A stretch of DNA of 64,000 bases from Adineta ricciae (Eukaryota > Rotifera > Eurotatoria > Adinetida > Adinetidae): contig CAJNOJ010000114.1 in NCBI GenBank assembly GCA_905250025.1, positions 246,775 to 310,774 on the forward strand. Direction: 5' to 3'. Below the pieces are notes generated by a model. That model was not told the origin of the DNA. It was given only the letters and a program-made list of their open reading frames with translations, and did no database searches. This document shows, one piece after another, positions 45,302-64,000 of the stretch. The first letter of the stretch is position 1. The number at the start of each line of letters is the position of its first letter. A program made the position numbers and the translations under genes.

Positions 45302-45602
45302 CTAAGTGGGATTAATTTCTTCATCAAATTATACAATTAGTTGATTATCTAAATACATAAATAACACTAATTGGAGAGACTGGAACATGAATAATGAAAC
45401 GCATATTTCTATTCGTAGAGCACTTTCTAATTGATGGAATTTTATGAAATAAAAATATAGAAATGCTGTGAAAACACCAAATAATAACTAATAGACGAAG
45501 AATTCAACTAGATTCGAATAAATTGATCTATTTTAACTCAATAGAGAGAATACGAATTATTAGATTAAGTTATATGTGAGGAATCTTGTCAATTGAATCC
45601 AT

Positions 45603-47584
45603 CCCATGTGTTCCACTACGATGAAATTACGACGCAGTTACGCCGTAACTGCGATCACGCTGTGACCCGTAATTGCGGAAAACTACGTCGCAGTTACGCG
45701 CAGATACGATGCAAAAATCGCAGATACGCGTAGTTACTATGAAAAAATCGTAGTTACGCCTCAGTGTTTTGAGGATTCTATATTATTGAAAGTACGTTTT
45801 TGAAAAAAGGTTTCGAAGACGCTGGGGTATGATGACTCGAACAATCTATTACCTCTCTTAGTCAGAGTGATTTTTCGAACGAAGGATAATTTACGATCAC
45901 TTTTTCTCTGAGTGCCAACAGGTGGAATCGAACACTGGAACGATGAATTAGAAGATCTAGGAAAGAGTCCACTGAACCAAACTTACTGATTAGACTTGAC
46001 TTCTAATTGACACCTCGTTGTGATGTGGCGCGTGAACAATGATTTTATACGAATATTTATCAAGTTGTTAGATAGAATGAGATGAGTATGTTTCATAGGG
46101 AGTCTCGATTCGATCTTAGAATGGCTGAATGTTTCGGAACTTTCGATCTTCTGACTGGAATCTATCCAATTTATATTCTCAATAAGGTGCCCATAAAGAC
46201 GCAGATAGCGCACAGACGTCTTTTAACTTGGAACAAATGGATTTTGAGGATGATGAGAAGCGGGTACCTGTAACCGTCGACATGTTTATCTTTAAACAAG
46301 TTGTAGGATATCTCTAAGTTTCAGCCACGAAAGACTACCTGCTCAGCTTACAGGAATAAAACATTTACGCCGAGCGCACTGACAGAAGAGACCCTCCGCT
46401 TCCAGTAGATACGAAAGATACGATTCCTTCTACGAAATATCCTACATGAATCAGTTCGAGAAGATAGCATTTTGTAGTCGAGAGTCGAAACTATCTGCCA
46501 GTAAAAGTCGGAGATGTGTATCTTGCAAAAAAAATAGATTAAGCAAGAAACGAGAAGTAACGCGCAGATATTTGGATAAGGCACAGACGTAAACTTATTG
46601 GGCAATAGTCGTAGGACTGAAACTTCGCTTTGCTGCTATCTGTGTAAATTTACAGCACCAAGACAACGAAGTTCATCTATACTTCAAGCTACCACTAGTG
46701 TTTTATGAATCAAAACTTTTCCATTGCTAAAATGGGATAGAAAAAGTAGATTCTTCTCATCTATTTTTTCACGAAAACTACCAAGTTCCGGCTGGAAGGT
46801 ACTATCCTTTTCTCATAGTTATTCAAAAAAACTGCACGTATCGGTGTAGAGCATGCAAAAACATCTACGAAAATTCATAATCAGCGCAAGCTGATAGTCA
46901 CTTTGGAAGAACCGAACGACTCGACCCTAATCGTGCTGATTGAACGTTATCCGTTCTTCATGTTCAATCTTATCACAAGTGTTCCATCATCCTCCAAAGA
47001 TATCTCAGATACTAATTATTCTTCCTTTTCACACGGTATTGCGAGTTCCTTTATGACTGGCAACGCGGATGTCTGTCTGCTGCCTTATCGATAGGAAGTT
47101 TGAAGAGTTTTTCGGTGGTGGTACAAAACTATACAAGCCCTTGATACGTTAGTCTCGAGATCAGTTGCATAGCTCCATACCGTTTTACGGATCATGAAAG
47201 TCGAGCGATCTCGAATAACTCTGAAAGACATCTATGCCTAGCTGTTCGCTAAGATTATTTCTATTTAACTATGCGTAAACACATCGCAGAAGACACAATG
47301 TGTTTACGATTAATCTCAATAGAAGTGGGGAATCATAGTCACGAGCAGTTACCACGTAGATTCTCCGACACACGTAACTTCGCCGTAGTCGTTGAAAATG
47401 TACACGCAGAAGAATACTTGCTGCGAGTATCGCGACGTAGCTACGCAAAAATGCGCCGCAGAGATCGTAATCTCTTTGCGTTCTGTACAAATACGGCTGA
47501 TGCGCCGCAGTTACGCGCAGCTACTCCGTAAATTCATCAATACGCGTAACTACACCGTAATCGTTAAAAAAGAAGCGACATGGG
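45603..47584. mobile_element. 1982-bp transposon-like insertion, absent from the other copy
   Basis: Copy 2 reads straight through the site (63658, gaatccATgttaga). Here the same flanks are separated by 1982 bp bounded by inverted CCCATGT / ACATGGG and a duplicated AT. Near both ends the sequence is packed with variants of GTAGTTACGC and CGCAGTTACG (about 45625-45765 and 47340-47570), a subterminal-repeat layout seen in many DNA transposons whose transposase binds such motifs. No open frame with transposase features was found, so it is probably non-autonomous. Superfamily undetermined. Confidence 0.85.
45911..45983 (-). other. tRNA-like sequence inside the insertion
   Basis: On the minus strand TGGTTCAGTGG fits the Pol III A box, GTTCGATTCC fits the B box, and CTTCTAA is in the place of an anticodon loop (UCU, arginine). 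The stems pair badly, so it is a tRNA-derived relic or chance and not a working tRNA. Confidence 0.3.
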
Positions 47585-47940
47585 ATGTTAGATAACACTG
47601 ATGTGCTGTGGAAAGATCGACGTATTGAAATCACAACCAAGACTATAGCTGTGCTGAGAAGTAGATACACTATACAGAATGTAGATTGTAATTTTTCTTT
47701 CAAATATCGTTAATCTGATTTCATGTATGTATGTTCTTCAAAGATTCCTGCAAAAGAGATCATATTCATTGAATCGAATAAATATCAGACGAATAAGTAA
47801 ATTAATGAATATGAAAGCGAGATTTCTTTGATCTAAATAGATTCAAATCAAAAAGTTTCTAATTAACTTTTACTAAAGCTTGAAGAGAGCTTGTAAATCA
47901 TAATCAAGCAAAGCTTATCAGACAATTTTCATAGTATATT

Positions 47941-47952
47941 NNNNNNNNNNNN
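47941..47952. other. Run of 12 N (assembly gap)
   Basis: Ends duplication B copy 1. What follows (47953-50158) is unrelated to the corresponding region and begins inside a gene. Confidence 1.
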
Positions 47953-63338: not shown

Positions 63339-64000
63339 ATGATGATTTGTTTGTAACTAAGTGGGATTCATTTTTTCATCAAATTATACCATTAGTTGAT
63401 TATCTAAATACATAAATAACACTGATTGGAGAGACTGAAACATGAATAATGAAACGCATATTCCTATTCGTAGAACACTTACTAATTGATGGAATTTTAT
63501 AAAAAATAAAAATATAGAAATGCTATGAAAACACCAAATAATAACTAATAGACGAAGAATTCAACTAGATTCTAATAAATTGATCTATTTTAACTCAATA
63601 GAGAGAATACGAATTATTAGGTTAAGTTATATGTGAGGAATCTTGTCAATTGAATCCATGTTAGATAACACTGATGTGCTGTGGAAAGATCGAGGTATTG
63701 AAATCACAACCAAGACTATAGCTGTGCTGAGAAGTAGATACACTGTACAGAATGTAGATTGTAATTTTTCCTTCAAATATCATTAATCTGATTTCATATA
63801 TGTATGTTCTTCAAAGATTCCTGCAAAAGAGATCATATTCATTGAATCGAATAAATATCAGACGAATAAGTAAATTAAGGAATATGAAAGCGAGATTTCT
63901 TTGATCTAAATAGATTCAAATCAAAAAGTTTCTAATTAACTTTTACTAAAGCTTGAAGAGAGCTTGTAAATCATAATCAAGCAAAGCTTATCAGACAATT
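63339..64000. other. Intergenic end of window with empty transposon site
   Basis: No gene. Position 63658-63659 (AT in gaatccatgttaga) is the uninterrupted target of the 1982-bp insertion in copy 1. Confidence 0.7.

Follow-up and report, generated by a model that had tools for sequence, protein, structure and literature searches.

What kind of element occupies positions 45603-47584 of the window, and which transposase may have moved it there? The window is the whole stretch of DNA analysed here, 64,000 nucleotides at positions 246775-310774 of contig C114 with a G+C content of 36.0%. Genome searches were run on the 130.5-Mb assembly, which consists of 1033 contigs. Much of the window (1-64000) occurs as two tandem copies: among its 39 repeat families, the 20 largest are 93-98% alike, and most of their offsets are about 11 kb or 16-18 kb. 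The tandem copies look like alleles that were put end to end by the assembler, although a true duplication is possible. The argument from the empty site given below holds either way. A run of N is also found at 47941-47952, and the ends of contigs C454 and C793 match 100% on either side of it.

The insertion and its empty site

The insert is 1982 bp long and free of N. It starts with CCCATGT (the 5' terminal inverted repeat, 45603-45609, plus strand) and finishes with ACATGGG (the 3' terminal inverted repeat, 47578-47584, minus strand). The same 7 bp are found at the 5' end of relatives elsewhere in the genome and the same 3' end recurs there as well. In the window element the inverted ends are perfect over 7 bp only. 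An AT borders the element on each side (45601-45602 and 47585-47586), and the insert amounts to 1982 bp plus one AT. With the element in place, the sequence is ...AATCCAT[CCCATGT...ACATGGG]ATGTTAG. In the sister copy, at about 63658, the corresponding sequence is ...AATCCATGTTAG: the element is missing and a single AT is present (63658-63659), without scar or footprint. When the joined flanks are aligned to the sister copy, 690 of the 718 columns are identical; taken separately, the left flank is 92% identical over 600 bp and the right flank 98% over 343 bp. As the filled site has AT on both sides and the sister site a single AT, the insertion duplicated AT. The exact ends of the 1982-bp element and the AT duplication, both claimed in the initial annotation, are borne out by this empty site. 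The insertion is real and well defined, and ordinary in kind.

The two copies have diverged by 2 to 8%, depending on the stretch, and the insertion is more recent than this divergence unless the sister copy lost the element by precise excision. Cut-and-paste elements can excise, yet the sister site shows one AT and no trace of a footprint, and an excision that leaves no footprint would be less likely than plain absence; loss from the sister copy is for this reason held to be rather unlikely. The initial annotation had also suggested that the element could be recently active. This stands relative to the 2-8% divergence of the copies, but a near-identical second copy of the element was not found when the genome was searched with its whole length.

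Subterminal repeats and interior

The motif GCAGTTACGC was counted at up to two mismatches and compared with 300 dinucleotide shuffles of each segment. The first 200 bp of the element contain seven matches (shuffle mean 0.30) and the last 260 bp contain six (shuffle mean 0.53), numbers that are reached in 0/300 shuffles in both cases. The 1522-bp middle contains two matches, which 47 of the 300 shuffles also reach, and no matches are found in the flanks (1000 bp on the left and 350 bp on the right). The clusters extend over 45634-45759 at the 5' side and 47345-47553 at the 3' side and are likely transposase binding sites. They had been described as mirror images of each other. Their density near both ends is confirmed, but the GCAGTTACGC-like motifs occur in both orientations and do not form a strict mirror image.

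The interior is single-copy apart from one stretch (46199-46588, plus strand), which shares about 66% identity with another repeat, found on contigs C718 and C279. This separate repeat is 1436 bp long (locus L023, 4627-6062; locus L024, 4823-6258), its two copies are 95% alike and it bears GTAACGCACAGACG-like repeats of its own. The interior of the element matches its start. The 1436-bp repeat was considered as the source of the element's ends and rejected, as the interior match does not explain them. On C718, a 1235-bp tandem duplication is present at the 1436-bp repeat.

The absence of a transposase frame, noted from the start, is upheld by the searches. With the five frames of the transposase-bearing relative described below as queries, tblastn against the element gave a best E of 0.52, and six internal frames of the element had no Pfam match. 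In addition, each of the 26 element frames of at least 40 residues was set against the transposase loci. Where L018 and L028 were matched, the similarity lies within the subterminal repeats; one weak 20-residue match of an element frame to L034 was seen as well (E 0.076). A decayed transposase inside the element was rejected.

A family of elements with the same ends

The repeat counts obtained from the genome search are lower bounds. The whole element matched itself and at least 11 other sequences, namely eight to the 5' end, one to the 3' end and two to the interior. Searches with the ends alone gave at least eight other places for the 5' end and at least one for the 3' end. When the 5' end of the relative on C967 was used as query, at least 27 matches were obtained, with C967 itself and the window counted and with several matches per locus in some cases. 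A family 5' pattern is found at 18 places and a subfamily 5' pattern at 11, each with 0 matches in the reversed control; C716 is common to both sets, and the subfamily set holds the window and C245 by construction. The 3' pattern has six exact places and six with one mismatch, the window being among the latter. At up to three mismatches this pattern is noisy (62 hits, 36 + 26, versus 38 in the reversed control, 16 + 22), and 3' hits were used as family members only with 0-2 mismatches or a matching 5' end. Three of the hits at up to three mismatches (L066, L067 and L071) look like tRNA genes by eye.

It is the ends of the window element alone that match the family. Identity to its best relatives amounts to 76-78% across about 153 bp, or to 83% across 80 bp. 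The initial annotation had pictured a one-off insertion or assembly filler in case other copies had different ends or were all single. Searches with the ends found same-ended elements at many sites, and as far as the family ends are concerned, neither differing ends nor solely single copies were encountered. That the element is a one-off insertion, assembly filler or scaffold artefact is hardly credible: a near-identical second copy is missing from the assembly and the contig contains doubled regions and the N run at 47941, but the element itself is N-free, it comes with an exact duplication and an empty site, and the same 5' ends occur at many other places with 0 control matches.

Very short members are also seen. 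The element on C337 (L053, 1501-1560) measures 60 bp and consists of little beyond the two ends of the family; an empty allele of this copy was looked for and none was found. C245 contains a 108-bp mini-element, and C186 one of about 100 bp, as judged by end coordinates alone. On C89 (L016, 5056-5278) the 5' end of an element with an inferred length of 8.6 kb is doubled, 222 bp apart and with the same 30-bp flank, which represents a local duplication.

Target site duplications across the family

The flanking duplications, which the initial annotation had proposed to tabulate, were read at single loci for 12 end pairs. A 2-bp duplication of mixed sequence is present in seven of the 12, where about 0.084 would be expected per pair from the base composition of the flanks (binomial 1.5e-5). 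The duplicated dinucleotides are AT in the window, TT on C102, TA on C145, AA on C965, TT on C535, CA on C89 and CT on C687. The pairing of the ends is inferred on C89, where they are 8.6 kb apart, and on C687, where they are about 5 kb apart and the 5' tip is CCCATAT. No matching 2-bp duplication was found at C555 (gc/ta), C246, C337, C245 and C79. Six further places (C738, C269, C26, C346, C75 and C37) were left out of the 12 pairs, one end being degenerate or unseen.

C246 (L020, 4163-4974) was rejected as a true case without duplication, since it is interrupted by an N gap and its left and right flanks are matched at different places in the genome. By its sequence, it is probably a scaffold misjoin of two elements. 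A second empty site is available on C621 (TTTA/CAAA), where TA was duplicated: a single insertion at TTTA/CAAA would account for the left flank of C246, the 3' half on C621 and the empty copy there.

A transposase-bearing relative

A longer relative with a transposase, such as the initial annotation had proposed to look for, is located on C555 (L018). There, a 6267-bp stretch runs from CCCATGT (35165) to ACATGGG (41431), and no other exact end 7-mers lie between them. Five frames, all on the minus strand and 107-388 residues long, lie within this element and are apparently exons. The longest, of 388 residues, gives a hit to Pfam Transposase_21 (PF02992, tnp2) at 8.5e-11, over the curated cut-off, and one to DUF1258 below the cut-off; Pfam has no match for the remaining four. 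In gene order, the motifs TDGAP, SDLPA, CTEC, DYMH, HAHIH and FES are found. Frames 1 and 3 show the D, D, C(2)C, H(3)H, E arrangement known from the CACTA/EnSpm-Mirage-Chapaev group, in which we take the D of TDGAP, the D of SDLPA and the E of FES to be catalytic, as in relatives.

At least 18 Transposase_21 matches are present in the genome, at least 14 of them over the cut-off, and the one on C555 is the only one that was traced to the ends of an element. L026, L033 and L041 retain all of these positions. L030 has S in place of the first C of C(2)C, and its first D lies past the end of the contig; L034 carries Q instead of the first H of H(3)H and K instead of the E. On C558 (L062), related frames are situated about 0.7 kb inside a GACATGGG end, with other subterminal repeats and with another CCCATGT in between. 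A tie between these frames and the GACATGGG end is suggestive.

Probable placement in the CACTA/EnSpm superfamily

Because the same-ended element on C555 bears a Transposase_21 gene, the family can be placed with CACTA/EnSpm of the TRC type. The window element (45603-47584, 1982 bp), as defined by its empty site and its family in the genome, is very probably a non-autonomous CACTA/EnSpm (CMC) element of the animal, TRC-like form, with CCC ends and 2-bp duplications and mobilised by Transposase_21. The initial annotation had not placed the element in a known superfamily and had considered an undescribed non-autonomous family. Its reading as a non-autonomous element of the transposase type is retained, but the superfamily can be named as CACTA/EnSpm.

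SmTRC1 from Schistosoma mansoni and its relatives in Tribolium and Aedes have been described as TRC, the animal branch of CACTA; they encode Transposase_21, have a CCC core at the tips and show 2-bp repeats in 7 of 14 SmTRC1 copies (PMC1636069). The family reported here shares with TRC the CCC tips, the 2-bp duplications flanking about half of the copies and the Transposase_21 in its gene-bearing member. It differs in that the tip continues with ATGT and is perfect over 7 bp, in its GCAGTTRCGC subterminal repeats and in that the window copy has no gene. The subterminal repeats of CACTA elements are described as 10-20 bp long and present in both orientations (PMC8978399). As in that superfamily, those of the window element are direct and inverted.

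A tnp2-type transposase in the family and close direct and inverted subterminal repeats are likewise shared with the plant CACTA elements (En/Spm). The tips are CCCATGT rather than CACTA, and the duplication is 2 bp long, while 3-bp duplications are usual in plants. ISL2EU, considered for the AT duplication, also duplicates 2 bp but has a different transposase, and this transposase was not seen in the same-ended element on C555, the one with a gene.

For the wider CMCT clade, the transposase order is given as D, D, then C(2)C and H(3-4)H, and a last E; the tips are CA..TG in most cases, and CAC..GTG tips with 3-bp duplications are regarded as consistent with EnSpm (PMC12730594). The C555 family transposase has this order as D, D, C(2)C, H(3)H, E. 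The tips of the present family are CCC..GGG, unlike the CA..TG that is usual, though not defining, for the clade. Two groups of this clade are of interest for their duplications: ESTA is CACTA-like with TA duplications, and Plavaka has tips TGT..ACA or CATCA..TGATG and 2-bp duplications in part (PMC12730594). The transposase clade and, for ESTA and part of Plavaka, the 2-bp duplications are shared with the family described here. In contrast to ESTA, it duplicates AT, TT, AA, CA and CT besides TA, and in contrast to Plavaka its tips are CCC..GGG.

It could be argued that the window element belongs to another superfamily with 2-bp duplications (ISL2EU, PHISTA or ESTA) and that the Transposase_21 gene on C555 is nested or a chance neighbour. 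The C555 element has no target duplication, and its ends might not represent one insertion; moreover, ESTA with its TA duplications is itself described as CACTA-like (PMC12730594). Against this, the C555 transposase frames sit between ends with no other exact end 7-mer, the related frames on C558 lie near a GACATGGG end (though another CCCATGT intervenes), the duplications are of mixed sequence and not solely TA, and the combination of CCC ends, 2-bp duplications and Transposase_21 is a published one (PMC1636069). Membership of another superfamily is regarded as quite improbable, and CACTA/EnSpm is kept as the placement. Among the literature matches listed, no title refers to a CCC-ended CACTA/EnSpm family from rotifers, which is not proof that the family is undescribed. 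Within the main text of a paper on bdelloid transposons, the words CMC and EnSpm are absent (PMC7943196).

A subfamily with a partly shifted subterminal motif

As far as its sequence tells, the window element belongs to a diverged subfamily in which the subterminal motif has partly shifted from TGCG to TACG. For the substitution counts, the 5' end of the window element was aligned to that of C967. Six of the eight TGCG sites are now TACG. Of the eight CGCA sites, two have become CGTA, four are unchanged and two are otherwise changed. G>A is the commonest substitution (13/39), and C>T accounts for 6/39. Over the first 160 bp, TACG/CGTA versus TGCG/CGCA amount to 12 versus 6 in the window element and to 2 versus 16 in C967. 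The last 260 bp give 12 versus 9 in the window element, 1 versus 24 in C555 and 2 versus 23 in C246.

Ordinary methyl-CpG decay fails to explain the change from TGCG to TACG, because the changed base lies outside the CpG. A strand-biased mutation may also lie behind it: CGCA became CGTA in two of eight cases only, with four of eight unchanged, and G>A is the commonest substitution. As the motif has shifted at both ends and the tips are unchanged, a different binding preference of the subfamily's transposase is suggested. Fixed tips combined with the TACG shift at both ends could tentatively be read as a switched binding preference of the transposase or as capture by a different transposase lineage, a reading that we consider possible but doubtful. 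Among the at least 18 Transposase_21 matches, of which that on C555 alone was traced to its ends, an autonomous partner bearing the TACG motif was not encountered.

Proposed mobilisation

In the proposed mechanism, the repeated subterminal motifs would serve as binding sites for a Transposase_21-type transposase that is encoded elsewhere in the genome. The enzyme would then pair the ends of the element and cut at CCCATGT/ACATGGG. A staggered cut at insertion would duplicate 2 bp, presumably by cut-and-paste chemistry. The gene-less window copy would have been moved in trans, either by the C555 transposase or by a relative with a TACG-type preference. The C555 enzyme may be unable to recognise the window element, given its partly different subterminal motif.

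Significance

Apart from the family and the motif shift, the locus represents an ordinary transposon insertion. It adds, from a single and apparently animal genome, a CCC-ended CACTA family together with an exact empty site. As the tips are kept and the subterminal motif shifts between subfamilies, the co-evolution of transposase and binding site becomes testable on natural variants.
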